Positions 1,812 through 20,287 of a stretch of 20,287 nucleotides of DNA are shown one piece after another. The translations under genes were made by a program, and so were the position numbers. The stretch covers positions 1 through 20,287 of the forward strand of contig CAJJTI010000016.1 in the NCBI GenBank assembly GCA_905194705.1, read 5' to 3'. This DNA comes from an uncultured Solobacterium sp. (lineage in GTDB: Bacteria > Bacillota_I > Bacilli_A > Erysipelotrichales > Erysipelotrichaceae). The stretch's first letter is position 1; each line of letters starts with the position of its first letter. The notes under the pieces were generated by a model, which did not search any database, was not told the DNA's origin, and saw only the letters and a list, made by a program, of their open reading frames with translations.

Positions 1812-2747
1812 CTATATTTTTGGTTTATAGAATTGTCTACCTTCTAAAGCAAATAATTTAGCTGTCCATTCACCTGGTTTAACTTGTGATAGAGCTTGGT
1901 TTAATGTATTCATTCTCGCATCAAGATTATCAATATAACTTAATACTTCTGCTTCTTTAATTTCTGGTAATACAGGAGAACCAAATTCCATTTTTCCATG
2001 GTGACTTAAAATCATATGTCTTAAAAGTAATGTTTCTTCGGCATTTTCTAAATGACATCTTTTAGAAGCTTCCATTAACCATCCATGACATATACTGATA
2101 TGACCAATTAACTTTCCTTCTGTACTGTATTCTCCTGAAATTAGACCGCCAAGTTCACATGTTTTACCCATATCATGTACGAGTACTCCAGAAAGAAGTA
2201 AATCATAGTTTAATGTCGGGTATAAAGAACAGATTGCTTTAGCAGTTTTTGCCATACCTAAAGTATGTTCTGCTAATCCCCCTACATATCCATGATGAAT
2301 TTTACTTGCGGCAGGATACACAAAAAATCTTTTATCGACTTTTTTGAACATTTCAATAACTAAAGTTTTTAAGTTCGTATTTTGAATAGAAAGAATTAAA
2401 TCCTTGATTTCATTTCTTAAAACTGTTTCTGAGTAAGAGCTTGTTTGTAAATACTCACTCATATCTAAAGTATTTTGATCTAAAGAAACTAAACTATTTA
2501 CTCTTAACTGCAACGCATGATTATAAAGAAGAACTTCACAATTTACATTTACTACATTACCTACAACTGCAGCTTCTTCATCTGTTGTTTTAACATCCCA
2601 TAGTTTAGCATCAATTGAGCCAGAGCTGTCTTGTAAAACAAGATTTAAATAAGGAGAACCTTTCTGAGTTGTTCCTTTTGTACAACTTTTAATCATTAAA
2701 GGAATAGAATATTTTTCTTTTTCCTTAAAATCTATAATCTTAGTCAT
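1812..2747 (-). CDS. yhaM: YhaM-type 3'-5' exoribonuclease (OB fold + HD domain)
   Basis: A 311-residue protein, close to the 314 of B. subtilis YhaM, a metal-dependent 3'-5' exonuclease that trims short RNA 3' ends and can act on single-stranded DNA. Residues about 15-90 form an OB-fold nucleic acid binding domain (LVLQDSSGSIDAKLWD, 37-52). Residues about 150-290 are the HD phosphohydrolase core: HH at 151-152, AEH at 159-161, VHDMGK at 190-195, SHHG at 248-251 and YIDNLDA at 271-277. An upstream start at 2765 is possible, but ATG at 2747 has GGAG 7 nt upstream. This ATG overlaps the stop of the glycosyltransferase-RecX gene by 8 nt (ATGACTAA), so translation is probably coupled. The stop is immediately followed by the murT start region. 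Its place in an envelope operon has no obvious functional logic. Assignment is confident. Confidence 0.93.
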   Translation of the reverse strand: MTKIIDFKEKEKYSIPLMIKSCTKGTTQKGSPYLNLVLQDSSGSIDAKLWDVKTTDEEAAVVGNVVNVNCEVLLYNHALQLRVNSLVSLDQNTLDMSEYLQTSSYSETVLRNEIKDLILSIQNTNLKTLVIEMFKKVDKRFFVYPAASKIHHGYVGGLAEHTLGMAKTAKAICSLYPTLNYDLLLSGVLVHDMGKTCELGGLISGEYSTEGKLIGHISICHGWLMEASKRCHLENAEETLLLRHMILSHHGKMEFGSPVLPEIKEAEVLSYIDNLDARMNTLNQALSQVKPGEWTAKLFALEGRQFYKPKI

Positions 2748-4728
2748 TATCCCACTCCATTTCATCTAAAATTGCATAAATATCTGAACATTCATATCCT
2801 TTAGCAGCACAATAACGATAAATCGTATTTCTTAATTCACTGCCAGAATATTTCTTTTCGTATCTTTTTCTCGCTTTTTGTGCACACTTTCGACAGTTAT
2901 CTAATTGTTTTAGTTCATCACCTGCAAAATCCAAATCCTGCACAACTGCTTCAACAATATCACTCTTGTAGCCACGAAGTAATAACTTGTTTTTAATCTT
3001 TTCTTTCTTCATGCGTACTGACTCATCACGAATTGTACCTTGAAGTTTTTCTGCATATGCCTTTGCATGTACTAGTTCTTCGTTAGGAAAAGTGTTTAAT
3101 ACATCTTGAATTAATTCAACAGGTATACCATTTTTCTTTAATTTACGAATAATTCTTTCTTCTCCAAATAAAGCATAATGCATTGAGTTAACAATAGTTT
3201 CACAATATCTTCTATCATTGATATATCCTTTTTTCTCAAGATTTTCGATAATATCATTGATTACTTCAATATCAAGTTTGAAATTCTTTGTTAACCAGTC
3301 ATACATTTCTTTACGTGTACGATCTTTTACAGCCAGCTTTCTTACACAAGAATCATAGGCATTTAATCTTTCTTCTCTGCTCTTTAAAGCTTTAATTGTT
3401 GATTCTGTAATCTTGCCACCTTTTCTTAAGCCAAAATTACAATAATCATCCAAAGAAATTGTCATCTTACTTTCTTCTTTAGAGCAGGTACGAACAATAA
3501 TTTGAACACTGTCATCTTTTACGATAATATCATCAATAACAGAAATACTCTTATATACTTCAATTGCATAATGATAAACTTCTATTACTCTTTCATAGAA
3601 AACCTCAGAACTGTATGGATGAACAACCTCTAAACATTTTTCTTTAATCTCTTCTAATTTATCATTAGATAATGTTTTAAATTTTAATAAAGCATCTTTT
3701 AAAGATTCAGCATCTTCAAAATACCAGCCTGTTTCTTCTTCAATAATCAAGTCACTTAATACTTCATCTTTTCTTGCAAATAGTGGAATACCACTTGATA
3801 AAGCTTCAATAAAAGTCATTCCTTGTGTTTCAGATAAACTTGCTGAAACAAACGCATCACTTGCTCGATAATAGTCAGCTATTTCTTTACTGTCTCTAGG
3901 ACCCGCAAAAAATACCGTATCCTCTATACCATTATCCTTAGCATACTTCTGTAATTTTTCTAAATCCGGTCCACCACCAACAATTAATAGTTTTATATCT
4001 CTACATTCTTCATGCAATTTCAAGAAGCCGTCAATAACAATATCTAAAGCTTTTTCTTCCGCAATACGGCCAACATAAACAATTATTTTATCTTGTTTTG
4101 TAAAGCCAAATTCATCATGTATTTTTTTTGTTTTTTCTTCACTAGTATTTAATGGGGAAAATTTATCTAAAGGTAAACCTGTAGGAACAACAAAAATATC
4201 AGAACGTACATTATATCTTTCTAATAGATCTTTCGTTTTTTTACTTGGAGCGATAACTGCTTGAGAAGTATCACCATACATTTTTGATAAATGAGCAACA
4301 GCTTTTTTGGCCACAGAATCAACTTTATCAGAGTTAATAAAGTTAACATAATGTGTATAGTCTTCATAAGTTGTGTGATAGGTACTGACAAGAGGAATGT
4401 TATACTGGTTTGCACACATTCTCGCAAGTATTCCTACGCCAAATTCAGTCTGTGCATGAATCATATCTAAATGTAGTGCTTTTACCTCATTCATCGCTCT
4501 TAAGTGTATTGGGGAAGTCATAACATAGCCATATAAAAACTTTAATTCAATTCCTGCAAGATAATAAATCTTATGATCTTCACTCCACTCGGAAGTACCA
4601 ATTTTTTTAGGACAGAAAACATATACTTCATGACCATGTTTTTCTAATTCATCACGCAATATTCTTGTACTATTAGCAACACCATTTATTTGTGGTGGAT
4701 ATGTATCCGAAAATAATCCTATTCTCAT
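2740..4728 (-). CDS. GT4 glycosyltransferase (diacylglycerol glucosyltransferase type) fused to full-length RecX
   Basis: One open frame of 662 residues joins two normally separate proteins. Residues 1 to about 395 are a GT-B family 4 glycosyltransferase: MRIGLFSDTYPPQINGVA at the start, HAQTEFGVG (91-99), STYHTTYEDYTHYV (115-128), PTGLPLDKF (182-190), VGRIAEEKALD (219-229), and an EX7E motif with E300 and E308 (ETQGMTFIE). These match processive or monoglucosyl-diacylglycerol synthases that glucosylate membrane diacylglycerol. Residues about 397-660 align along the whole length of RecX, the RecA-filament modulator: an N-terminal beta segment (IDDIIVKDDSVQIIVRT), then repeated three-helix units such as RTRKEMYDWL, EKKGYINDRRYC and GEERIIRKLKKNGI. 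The ATG has GGAGAG 6 nt upstream, just after the flippase stop. The Met at 422 has no good ribosome site and would remove RecX beta strands, so a separate RecX start is unlikely. The donor and acceptor are inferred from family only. Confidence 0.9.
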   Translation of the reverse strand: MRIGLFSDTYPPQINGVANSTRILRDELEKHGHEVYVFCPKKIGTSEWSEDHKIYYLAGIELKFLYGYVMTSPIHLRAMNEVKALHLDMIHAQTEFGVGILARMCANQYNIPLVSTYHTTYEDYTHYVNFINSDKVDSVAKKAVAHLSKMYGDTSQAVIAPSKKTKDLLERYNVRSDIFVVPTGLPLDKFSPLNTSEEKTKKIHDEFGFTKQDKIIVYVGRIAEEKALDIVIDGFLKLHEECRDIKLLIVGGGPDLEKLQKYAKDNGIEDTVFFAGPRDSKEIADYYRASDAFVSASLSETQGMTFIEALSSGIPLFARKDEVLSDLIIEEETGWYFEDAESLKDALLKFKTLSNDKLEEIKEKCLEVVHPYSSEVFYERVIEVYHYAIEVYKSISVIDDIIVKDDSVQIIVRTCSKEESKMTISLDDYCNFGLRKGGKITESTIKALKSREERLNAYDSCVRKLAVKDRTRKEMYDWLTKNFKLDIEVINDIIENLEKKGYINDRRYCETIVNSMHYALFGEERIIRKLKKNGIPVELIQDVLNTFPNEELVHAKAYAEKLQGTIRDESVRMKKEKIKNKLLLRGYKSDIVEAVVQDLDFAGDELKQLDNCRKCAQKARKRYEKKYSGSELRNTIYRYCAAKGYECSDIYAILDEMEWDND

Positions 4729-4730
4729 GT

Positions 4731-5780
4731 TTAACTCTCCTCTTTGATTGGTATATCTTTTCTTGTCTTAGCATATAAGAAAACAAGACCTCCAATCACT
4801 AACATCATATAATATGTAGCAAATCTCCATATAATCATAATTGAACTTGCATAAGCTTTACCAAATATTGTAGAAAACATCAATAAGAATGAAGCTTCTG
4901 TTCCTCCAGAACTTCCAGGAGATGGAATAAATGCATTCACTAATGAAACAAATGAACTTAAGGCAATAATATTAATTAATATATCAAAATTAACCGGTAA
5001 TCTTAAAGCTAACGCAATGAAAAATGGAACCGAATAATATAAAAGTAAACGAACAACATTCAATAGTACAACTTTTGGTATCATTTCTTTATGTTCTTTT
5101 ATAATCTTTACTTCGCCTTCAAAACGGTTAAGTTGCTTTTTTAAACTTTCTGTTGCTTTTACAGGATCTTTTACAAGTTTCATTTTCACGCCAATTTCAA
5201 TACCTTTTGTAGCAATCCATGTATAAAACTTTGGAAAGCTGACTAATACCCATAAGCCTAAAATAACGGCAGCATTTACAACAAAGGCAAAAGCGACAAT
5301 AATAAAGAACGAAGAATATTTACTGTAAAATAATGGAAGTTTTAATAGCACCAGAATAAATACTGATACAACCATTGTTGTCTGGTAAATAATAAAGTCC
5401 ATCCAGAGAACACTGGCACTGCTTGAAATTGGTACACCCTGTTTACGAAATATAAATACCTGAACAAACTGACCGCCGCTGGCACTTGGGGTAATGTTGT
5501 TAAAGAAACTTCCAACAAAGGCATTGATAATTCCATAGCGATATTTATATTCAGGATTGCTTAATTTACATTCTATCGTTAAGGCAATACCTACCATGAT
5601 ACGACTTAAAAGTACAACAAGAATCACCACAAAAAACCAGAAGTGATTGGCACTTTGTATTACAGCAATAATATCAATAGGGTTGTTTTTGAATGTCAGC
5701 CATATAACAAGAACTGCTATTGTTACAATTAATACGATATTAAAAACATAGTTATTTAATAATTTACTTATTTTTTGCAT
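4731..5780 (-). CDS. Lysylphosphatidylglycerol synthase TM-region / YbhN-like integral membrane protein (putative lipid flippase)
   Basis: Polytopic membrane protein of about 349 residues from the ATG at 5780, of the UPF0104/MprF flippase-domain family. About eight hydrophobic segments are visible, starting with NIVLIVTIAVLVIWLTF near the N-terminus. Family signatures are NNITPSASGGQFVQVFIF in the first half and NAFIPSPGSSGGTEASF in the second. A cytoplasmic, charged loop (KATESLKKQLNRFEGEVKII) lies between them. MprF's related domain flips aminoacyl-phospholipids; for stand-alone members the substrate is generally unknown. The next gene starts 2 nt after the stop and looks like a diacylglycerol glucosyltransferase, so moving or supporting a glycolipid is a reasonable inference. 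Start: a TTG at 5825 with AAGGAA upstream would add 15 residues, but those codons are also a near-perfect promoter; ATG 5780 (or 5786) gives the usual short N-terminus before the first membrane helix. Confidence 0.85.
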   Translation of the reverse strand: MQKISKLLNNYVFNIVLIVTIAVLVIWLTFKNNPIDIIAVIQSANHFWFFVVILVVLLSRIMVGIALTIECKLSNPEYKYRYGIINAFVGSFFNNITPSASGGQFVQVFIFRKQGVPISSSASVLWMDFIIYQTTMVVSVFILVLLKLPLFYSKYSSFFIIVAFAFVVNAAVILGLWVLVSFPKFYTWIATKGIEIGVKMKLVKDPVKATESLKKQLNRFEGEVKIIKEHKEMIPKVVLLNVVRLLLYYSVPFFIALALRLPVNFDILINIIALSSFVSLVNAFIPSPGSSGGTEASFLLMFSTIFGKAYASSIMIIWRFATYYMMLVIGGLVFLYAKTRKDIPIKEES

Positions 5781-5816
5781 ATGCATAATTATACTATCGA
5801 TGAAAAATGCACTCAA
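5778..5816 (-). promoter_or_regulatory. Near-consensus sigma-A promoter of the envelope operon, apparently giving a leaderless mRNA
   Basis: On the minus strand, TTGAGT (5816-5811) and a perfect TATAAT (5793-5788) are 17 bp apart. Transcription should start 6-8 nt after the -10 box, at about 5782-5780, and an in-frame ATG occupies 5780-5778. This is the only good promoter seen between the rbfA terminator and the flippase gene. It implies that the flippase mRNA starts at or within two bases of its start codon, with no Shine-Dalgarno site. Confidence 0.68.
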
Positions 5817-5848
5817 CTGTTTCAATATTACAGTTTCCTTAACTTTTG

Positions 5849-10811: not shown

Positions 10812-11117
10812 CTATTTCTCTTTATAAATCAACTTTCCCATAGATAATAATGTTCTTTGAGGAATTTCAAACATATATTCACCCAGTAAACATAGCATCA
10901 CAACAAAAAATAAATGTCTATCTGGAAAGATTGAATCTAGAATCTGTCCAATAATTCCATAGATAATAAAATCACTGACTACTAGTACTTTTAATAATTG
11001 GTTTGTCTCTTCAGTGCGTACTAAAACCTTATGGCAATATGGACATTCAAGTTTCTCATTTTTACCAAAGGGATTCGTGTATAAAATTTTATTACAATAA
11101 GGACATGGTATTTTCAT
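10812..11117 (-). CDS. Small zinc-ribbon membrane protein of unknown function
   Basis: A 101-residue protein that I do not recognise. The N-terminus has two CPYC knuckles (residues 5-8 and 25-28, C-x2-C-x16-C-x2-C), a zinc-ribbon fold expected in the cytoplasm. Two hydrophobic segments follow, LLKVLVVSDFIIYGIIGQIL (41-60) and LFFVVMLCLLGEYMF (69-83), and the tail is basic (GKLIYKEK). This is the layout of zinc-ribbon-plus-membrane proteins with unknown roles. The ATG is two bases after the polC stop and has no Shine-Dalgarno site, so it probably depends on reinitiation by ribosomes finishing polC. It lies where Bacillus has only a short gap between polC and rimP. The codon use and the conserved Cys positions make it a real gene, but nothing here fixes its function. 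Confidence 0.75.
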   Translation of the reverse strand: MKIPCPYCNKILYTNPFGKNEKLECPYCHKVLVRTEETNQLLKVLVVSDFIIYGIIGQILDSIFPDRHLFFVVMLCLLGEYMFEIPQRTLLSMGKLIYKEK

Positions 11118-18401: not shown

Positions 18402-20287
18402 TCAATTTGAATGATTATCCATTTCAATTTTTTGATTTACAGCTTTACAAATAATATCGATAACTTCTTTTTCTTTTAAATATTTCTCTTTTATTCCATA
18501 TTTAATATTTCCAGTAAGTATATTACTCATATCTTCTAATGTATATTTTTGTAATAAATATATTTGTGTGATGCTGTCTAAAGTAGCTTGATTTAGATGA
18601 TTCATTAAATCATCTTTAGCATATTCTTTTTCATTCAAATCATAGAAAATACATGCACAATACATAATCAATGCTTCTGGCATTTTTTCTTCTTTTCTTA
18701 AAAATTGTGCCATTTTAAACATAATTATTCTACTTTCATAAGTTCCATATTTTTGAACATACTGCATTTTCATTTCATTCCATAAGTTATTTTTATAGTT
18801 TGAAAGGGACTCATAGCCATATTTATCAAAATAATCGAATAAAGATATTACAGTATATCTCATATTATGAATTTCTTTAATGCATTGATATTTTTTAACA
18901 ATTTGTTTTCCTTTTTCTGTATATGAGTATTTTGTGTCAGGATATTTTTTCATTAATTCTTCAGCAGTAACATTATCTATTAACATTTTAATCAAATCAT
19001 TTTTTAGTCCTGTCGTTTTCAATTCATAATTTGAACATAATGCTTTTAATTCTGAAACTGTTAATAATTCTAATGCAGAAGTTAAATCTCCTGAAGTTAT
19101 ATAACCTTGATTTTCTAGATATTTAAGAATAACTTGAGGTTTAGTAATACCATATTCTTCTTCATAGTATTTTGGAAAATTGTTGTTATTTGTTTTTAAT
19201 TTATCCGCAAATTGAAGAATAAATAATTCTTGAATTGTTAATCCTTCGGGACATCTTGAGTCAAATGACTTTTTAAGAAATTCTGTCCCTGAGTTATTAA
19301 CGTCATTATTATTTTTAAAATATACATCCCTTGGTTTAGAACCCTGAGCTGGTCCAATAACACCTTGAGTTTCTAAAGTATCAATCAATCTTGCTGCTCG
19401 ACCATAACCTATATCAAATCTTCTTTGTAACAAGGAAGTGGATGCTTTTTGTGTATCAATTACATATTCTTTTACTTCTTTGTAAAGTGGATCAATCCCA
19501 CTAAAAGGCAAAATATCATCATTATCTAAAAAAATTTTTAAATCGTCATATATATGATTTTGATTTTGGTAGTTTTGATTTTGAATAAATCTACAAACAT
19601 TCATCATTTCAACATCATCAATATATGGAGTTATCACTCTTTGTGAAAAATCATTAATTTGTGCTTTATACAATATTTCACCATAATTCGATAAGCCTTC
19701 TGCACCTGAAGTACCAATAGCTAGTCTAGATTGTTGTGAATTTGGTAATTTAAAGGCAATTCTACCATCAAATTCTGTCTTAAGCATATCGCTTAAACTG
19801 CTCTTATCCGCACTTAAACAAGTAGCAATAATATGTATTCCTGTTATACGTGTTGTAGAAGTAATAGAATATAAAGATTCTGATAAAGTTTTATTTGTAC
19901 TAACTAAATCATCAATACTATCCACAAACAAAACTATATGTTTCATCTTTTGATTTGGATATTTATCATTATAACTTTCTATATTCCTAATACCATTTTT
20001 AGAAAATTGTTGTATTCTATCTTCTTTGATTTTACATAATTTGCGTATAACCGTATTTGCTCTATCAAGAGAAACGATTGGAAAAAGAAGATGTGGTAAA
20101 ACTTTAAATGTGGCATAATTTAATATTTTAGAATCAATTATTGCTAAAGAAAGATCATCTGGTGTATTTTGCATCAATAAAGAAATAATAATAGAATACA
20201 TCAAATTAGTCTTACCTGTTTCTTGACTGCCAGCAATAAGATAATTATTTGTCTTAGCAAGATTACCAAAATGTGCATCGCCAAAGA
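18402..20287 (-). CDS. FtsK/SpoIIIE-like protein with gamma domain, SAP domain and helical tail (5' end outside window)
   Basis: The visible 627 residues continue past the window edge upstream; the first visible codons encode FGDAHFGNLAKTNNYLIAG. The RecA-like motor has Walker A GSQETGKT (19-26). Walker B is VLFVDSID (118-125), lacking the glutamate of the family DE pair, and the usual ATQR sensor is ATCL (154-157). FtsK framework such as RIAFKLPNSQQSR and GAEGLSNYGEIL is retained. The gamma winged helix is very well kept (19317-19493: DPLYKEV, STSLLQRRFDIGYGRAARLI, GPAQGSKPRDV). Beyond it come about 300 extra residues: a SAP-type DNA-binding motif (18969-19067, LTVSELKALCSNYELKTTG) and a helical domain recalling SAP proteins of phages and accessory islands. 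It is richer in Asn, Lys, Tyr and AT than its neighbours, suggesting an accessory or transferred gene. It is probably not the main division translocase; its role is unknown. Confidence 0.85.
   Translation of the reverse strand, partial: FGDAHFGNLAKTNNYLIAGSQETGKTNLMYSIIISLLMQNTPDDLSLAIIDSKILNYATFKVLPHLLFPIVSLDRANTVIRKLCKIKEDRIQQFSKNGIRNIESYNDKYPNQKMKHIVLFVDSIDDLVSTNKTLSESLYSITSTTRITGIHIIATCLSADKSSLSDMLKTEFDGRIAFKLPNSQQSRLAIGTSGAEGLSNYGEILYKAQINDFSQRVITPYIDDVEMMNVCRFIQNQNYQNQNHIYDDLKIFLDNDDILPFSGIDPLYKEVKEYVIDTQKASTSLLQRRFDIGYGRAARLIDTLETQGVIGPAQGSKPRDVYFKNNNDVNNSGTEFLKKSFDSRCPEGLTIQELFILQFADKLKTNNNNFPKYYEEEYGITKPQVILKYLENQGYITSGDLTSALELLTVSELKALCSNYELKTTGLKNDLIKMLIDNVTAEELMKKYPDTKYSYTEKGKQIVKKYQCIKEIHNMRYTVISLFDYFDKYGYESLSNYKNNLWNEMKMQYVQKYGTYESRIIMFKMAQFLRKEEKMPEALIMYCACIFYDLNEKEYAKDDLMNHLNQATLDSITQIYLLQKYTLEDMSNILTGNIKYGIKEKYLKEKEVIDIICKAVNQKIEMDNHSN

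Follow-up and report, generated by a model that had tools for sequence, protein, structure and literature searches.

A glycosyltransferase-RecX fusion in most genomes of the order of Holdemania massiliensis and its probable origin from overlapping operon genes

A single open reading frame of 662 residues, located in the 20,287-nucleotide stretch of uncultured Solobacterium DNA that was analyzed here (the window), encodes a GT4 glycosyltransferase (GT) followed by a complete long-form RecX (approximately residues 396-660), the two parts being connected by a helix-to-strand joint. RecX is encoded in this manner, i.e., behind a probable membrane-lipid enzyme on the same chain, in most genomes of the order to which Holdemania massiliensis (G007) belongs, Erysipelothrix included. 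The known RecX forms are, to our knowledge, free proteins, and a literature search of titles and abstract openings returned no publication on a GT-RecX fusion. Both families are already known, and databases show the architecture under one name or the other; spread through most of the order, it is a new combination of known families with an unusually clear history. The explanation that we consider likely is an old merger of overlapping operon neighbours, whose intact halves work largely on their own and whose joint mainly represents inherited co-expression.

Architecture of the fused gene and its operon

The features on which the analysis is based are the following (window coordinates):

4731..5825, minus strand: LPG_synthase_TM membrane protein, directly upstream of the fused gene, in the LPGtm-GT-recX-yhaM block
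4737..4742, minus strand: Shine-Dalgarno-like GAGGAG of the GT start (sequence before the ATG)
2740..4728, minus strand: fused GT4-RecX coding sequence, ATG start (open reading frame, Pfam, protein search, alignment)
3550..4728, minus strand: GT4 half, residues 1-393, with N domain (14-188), C domain (201-360) and closing helix (374-393) (Pfam, model, Foldseek)
3805..3831, minus strand: EX7E motif, E300 to E308, invariant in 20 aligned sequences
3520..3609, minus strand: junction, at which the GT closing helix (374-393) continues into the first strand of RecX (396-403) (model, alignment)
3454..3543, minus strand: RecX N-terminal beta segment, residues 396-425 (model)
2767..3360, minus strand: RecX three-helix repeats HTH1-HTH3, residues 457-654 (Pfam, sequence matches to structures)
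1812..2765, minus strand: yhaM-like HD/OB-fold gene, following in the operon, with a start that overlaps the stop of recX

The original prediction had placed a full GT4 enzyme and a complete RecX in one frame, and this is supported by five Pfam domains above their cut-offs, i.e., Glyco_transf_4 at residues 14-188 (90.1 bits, cut-off 28.5), Glycos_transf_1 at 201-360 (111.1 bits, cut-off 26.4) and, with a cut-off of 26 bits each, RecX_HTH1 from residue 457 (38.4 bits), RecX_HTH2 at 504-544 (27.3 bits) and RecX_HTH3 at 608-654 (40.6 bits). The chain has a predicted mass of ~75 kDa, and its AlphaFold model exhibits a mean pLDDT of 87 with a pTM of 0.63, the latter value rendering the relative placement of the GT and RecX halves unreliable.

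The two glycosyltransferase domains, together with E300 and E308 of the EX7E motif, assign the first half to GT4. Foldseek matches of the model include MshA, BshA, PimA and PimB', and the best 50 are all glycosyltransferases and silent on the RecX half. The closest NCBIfam model is that of alpha-monoglucosyldiacylglycerol synthase (NF049988), which, like the fused GT, combines GT4 domains with EX7E and matches over the entire GT half; however, the score of 254.6 bits lies below the equivalog cut-off of 400, and the model stops with the GT (398 positions) whereas the fused protein continues into RecX. The predicted assignment to the diacylglycerol glucosyltransferase type thus stands as the best family match and falls short at the equivalog level, and the substrate can therefore only be inferred: the GT half probably adds sugar to membrane lipids and, judging from this family match and the membrane-protein neighbour, may glucosylate diacylglycerol from UDP-glucose.

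In the RecX half, the model places beta strands at residues 396-403, 407-413 and 419-425, as expected of the long form, so that the N-terminal beta segment is, as had been claimed, present in frame. Sequence matches to solved RecX chains cover residues 441-605 (3e3v) and 430-597 (3d5l), while the NCBIfam RecX equivalog NF010733 scores 141.7 bits against a cut-off of 240. The fused RecX resembles B. subtilis RecX (264 residues, PMC3527212; PDB 3e3v and 3d5l) in its full length, beta segment and three-helix repeats, but differs from such long Firmicutes forms in constituting the tail of a GT4 enzyme and in lacking a start of its own with a Shine-Dalgarno-like site. A free-standing polypeptide, which is usual for RecX without defining it, is replaced here by a frame shared with the GT. 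By its domain content this half would modulate or restrain RecA filaments, and RecA was found above cut-off in 20 of the 22 genomes tested, the exceptions being G014, which returned no match, and G111, which returned a contig-end fragment only. A different RecX extension, of ~160 N-terminal residues in three similar segments with no GT match, is found at L201:6003-7292.

The gene order on the minus strand of the window is LPG_synthase_TM, GT-RecX, yhaM-like and MurT, and yhaM adjoins recX on its downstream side in all 40 of the in-order loci inspected for which the frame is short or split. The recX stop lies within the start region of the yhaM-like gene at 2740-2765 (ATGACTAA), an overlap that suggests translational coupling. 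At four other loci (L042, L046, L053 and L057), the fusion is immediately preceded by a second GT, which is diverged (63-85 bits).

Distribution and integrity of the fusion

A protein search with the fused chain returned 1562 matches, of which the 120 listed are all full-length fusions of 659-705 residues with 49-100% identity and 99-100% query coverage. A genome scan added 80 loci from at least 572 relatives, 79 of them in a single frame and one, L045, with a stop inside RecX. The fusion is consequently considered real, and an indel or read error at the junction is ruled out by conservation in relatives. Of 294 genomes sampled from the order, itself a larger group, 280 matched the RecX-half profile, and the frame containing the match comprises at least 590 residues in 224, 200-310 residues in 39, an intermediate length in 16 and fewer residues in one, some of the short frames running into contig ends. 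The two-domain form thus extends through most of the order, with 224 of the 280 genomes fused. Genera carrying the fusion, as named in records or proteins, are Solobacterium, Bulleidia, Lactimicrobium, Anaerorhabdus, Holdemania, Traorella, Longicatena, Dielma and Erysipelothrix, the last represented among the listed matches by E. inopinata, E. larvae and E. urinaevulpis; together, the carriers make up a large set of bacteria associated with the gut and with animals. A separate recX beside the fusion was found in none of 17 relatives, bar a weak 66-position match in G001 (E 3.9e-4).

Close fused pairs yield dN/dS values of ~0.03-0.11 for the GT half and 0.01-0.14 for the RecX half, based on 40 listed of 44 computed pairs with saturated values omitted; since some pairs contain the same genome under two locus identifiers (e.g., L025/L087 and L035/L083), the independent comparisons number fewer than 44. 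These ratios indicate that both halves are under purifying selection and that neither is relaxed in fused genes. An artefact of assembly or sequencing, or a pseudogene in decay, might be suspected from the broken frames of a few relatives (L045, L100 and L124), but is scarcely credible in view of this selection, of the identical frame in 224 of 280 genomes and of two protein searches with fused queries whose listed matches are all fused, except for P0248, a 441-residue Erysipelothrix match that ends after the GT; conservation of the fused frame across relatives is the reason for its rejection. In G070 (L100/L235) the GT part is distributed over three frames, followed by an in-frame GT end and RecX, reflecting either sequencing errors or decay.

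The joint is equally uniform. Of 131 fused sequences (116 distinct), 130 have 25 residues from Y385 to Q409, and the predicted model displays no floppy linker. Of the GT starts, 94 of 115 exhibit a Shine-Dalgarno-like 4-mer pattern. The window gene has no in-frame ATG, GTG or TTG at residues 360-421; M422, the first to follow, is not preceded by a Shine-Dalgarno-like 4-mer, and initiation from it would entail loss of most of the RecX beta segment. The scan of relatives covered residues 386-400, with residues 401-421 scanned in the window gene only, and of the 59 among 116 distinct fused genes that possess an in-frame ATG, GTG or TTG at residues 386-400, none carries such a 4-mer; a hidden internal recX start was rejected on this basis, in line with the prediction that no internal start with a ribosome site separates the halves. 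Of the ancestral recX ribosome site, a GAGG is left in four of the 116 fused genes. It is also conceivable that long and free RecX are both produced, through internal initiation or cleavage, and that the fusion is only apparent at the protein level. M422 in the window, and the 59 of 116 relatives whose residues 386-400 include an in-frame start codon, leave room for such a scenario, which is nevertheless quite improbable given that all of these starts are devoid of a Shine-Dalgarno-like site and that an M422 product would miss most of the beta segment.

Unfused neighbours and the origin of the joint

Beyond the order, a class-wide draw returned RecX matches in 226 of 296 genomes, and none of the 114 listed RecX frames (232-317 residues) in genomes new to this draw is fused; these genomes (above G294) are regarded as outside the order on the basis of the draw rather than of kinship data. 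The surroundings of recX were inspected at 60 such loci, selected from higher-scoring rows of the class draw, and 59 yielded an upstream neighbour: a GT4 enzyme in six, a UgtP-type GT28 in 12, a YitT-like protein in 18, an S41 peptidase in five, an LPG_synthase_TM-like protein in four, PrfB in three and an unclassified protein in 11. The names YitT, S41 and PrfB are assigned by sequence likeness, while the LPG_synthase_TM-like group is named by its likeness to the window neighbour, without a family match. The YitT-like membrane protein (L175 and 17 further loci) is the commonest of these neighbours.

The six GT4 neighbours are of the same kind as the fused GT, that of L188 being distant, and form overlapping pairs with recX. 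In all six, recX occupies the +1 frame, a candidate start codon precedes the end of the GT stop by 23 nt, and a GAGG or GGAG is located just upstream of this start, within GT codons; L243 and L270 possess additional candidate starts, and the RecX match of L270 begins late. Y385 and RecX model position 3 are separated by 36 nt in 119 of the 123 fused sequences measured and by 39 nt in the other four, and the corresponding spacing in five of the six unfused pairs, worked out by hand, is 31-37 nt, so that the length of the fused joint and the unfused overlap agree to within a few nucleotides. The existence of these overlapping pairs points to a small frame-changing indel inside the gene overlap as the probable origin of the fusion.

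The merger favoured here would have proceeded as follows. Early in the order, an indel would have joined the overlapping neighbours of an LPGtm-GT-recX-yhaM operon, erasing the start and ribosome site of recX, and RecX could therefore have been produced only as a GT tail until a new start had evolved. Some lineages would later have acquired such a start, while lineages losing the GT would have gained one or retained a GT stub as a leader. Each half, presumably with its own enzymatic or RecA-directed activity and independent of the other in function, would perform its own job, and selection would retain both. Loss of the recX ribosome site would thus have acted as a ratchet, as the anatomy of the genes suggests.

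We infer a single origin; however, in a tree of RecX plus YhaM (82 rows, quick mode, without bootstrap, with L188 and L206 as long branches), the outgroup rows L181 and L183 fall beside the basal fused group and apart from the other outgroup rows, and two independent fusions are therefore possible. In the same tree, unfused rows are nested inside fused clades, and the AU test rejects a single clade of all fused rows (p 4e-5). Parsimony counts eight changes of the fused label under LG and six under the mixture model, of which starred branches force six and five, respectively.

The unfused forms within the order are of several kinds. One group, composed of L137, L138, L141 and L145, has the GT and recX adjacent in separate frames, overlapping again, while other unfused in-order loci keep recX-yhaM with no GT alongside. 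Of the genomes that lack an intact fusion, 28 have either no GT ortholog or a diverged one: the top scores are 332 (G192), 310 (G174), 251 (G244) and 228 bits (G245), all others are at or below 168 bits, and 11 of the 28 have no GT at 1e-40, compared to 568-631 bits in three fused controls. The reverse is seen in G122, with a free GT ortholog (539 bits) and no RecX match, whereas G092 is uninformative on a free GT because its GT runs to a contig end; absences of either gene may in part stem from incomplete assemblies. At L209 and L238 the part of the GT bearing the catalytic motif is gone and an N-terminal GT stub is still in frame with a whole RecX, the stub being clear in L209 (33 bits, 0 of 500 shuffles) and weak in L238 (8.3 bits, 0 of 500 shuffles). 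Only these two loci keep a stub; as a general fossil, a GT helix remaining in front of free RecX was sought by eye in 29 loci and was not evident. From the GT losses and the relict stubs attached to whole RecX it follows that RecX tends to outlast the GT and is usually kept when the GT is lost. The joint is accordingly dispensable, having been split or lost several times, mostly with RecX kept and in two cases with a GT stub left behind. A neutral fusion of operon neighbours, one of two possibilities that the original prediction had raised, is therefore well supported by the unfused overlapping pairs outside the order and by this repeated undoing.

Possible functional coupling and wider meaning

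The fused state nonetheless persists in most of the order over a large divergence, with a near-fixed junction length, and both exceed the needs of a purely accidental joint, although a 23-nt overlap would itself constrain that length. The same properties, together with the absence of a floppy linker in the model, would suit functional coupling, in which RecX is held at the membrane by the GT half or gated by it in response to lipid or UDP-sugar state, thereby tying RecA control to envelope growth. In addition, the gene directly upstream of recX encodes another type of glycolipid enzyme, the UgtP-type GT28, in 12 of the 59 loci outside the order, and membrane binding through a C-terminal helix has been proposed for a Mycoplasma glycolipid synthase (PMC6506492). 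Against coupling stand the repeated splitting and GT loss with RecX kept, the occurrence of a YitT-like gene upstream instead in 18 of the same 59 loci, which derive from higher-scoring genomes, and the behaviour of B. subtilis RecX-YFP, which is dispersed during growth and forms nucleoid foci near RecA threads after damage (PMC3527212). Coupling is on balance possible but rather unlikely.

The UgtP-type neighbours occur at L173, L181-L186, L189, L190, L241, L247 and L251, L247 being weaker. Three of the 12 were checked against NCBIfam, with diglucosyldiacylglycerol synthase as best match and all scores below cut-off. They parallel the fused GT in being a glycolipid enzyme type directly upstream of recX, but belong to another GT family and are encoded by a gene separate from recX. 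A bolder, distinctly unlikely proposal is that the fusion represents, in hardened form, an old functional link of Bacilli from glycolipid synthesis to RecA control, with a membrane-seated GT that senses lipid or UDP-sugar and places or gates RecX. Were it true, recombination and SOS would be tuned to envelope growth, and the position of recX behind two glycolipid enzyme families outside the order would be a trace of the link; in light of the nucleoid foci reported in PMC3527212, a membrane-held RecX would represent a real change in cell biology.

Irrespective of its function, the joint has practical consequences. Annotation masks one of the two functions, since the same architecture is called a RecX regulator, a glycosyltransferase or a diacylglycerol glucosyltransferase, and a GT knockout in fusion carriers would also affect RecX. 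The natural split, fused and relict forms within the order can be used to test a function of the joint against lock-in by loss of the ribosome site.

Two further genes of the window deserve mention. An FtsK-type protein at 18402-20204 (minus strand), cut by the window end, carries ~300 residues beyond its gamma domain, including a SAP domain, and this extension has a match in only one of 19 related genomes, a weak one (E 2.2e-4). Between rimP and polC, at 10812-11117 (minus strand), lies a gene for a 101-residue protein that begins like a zinc ribbon and is hydrophobic thereafter.
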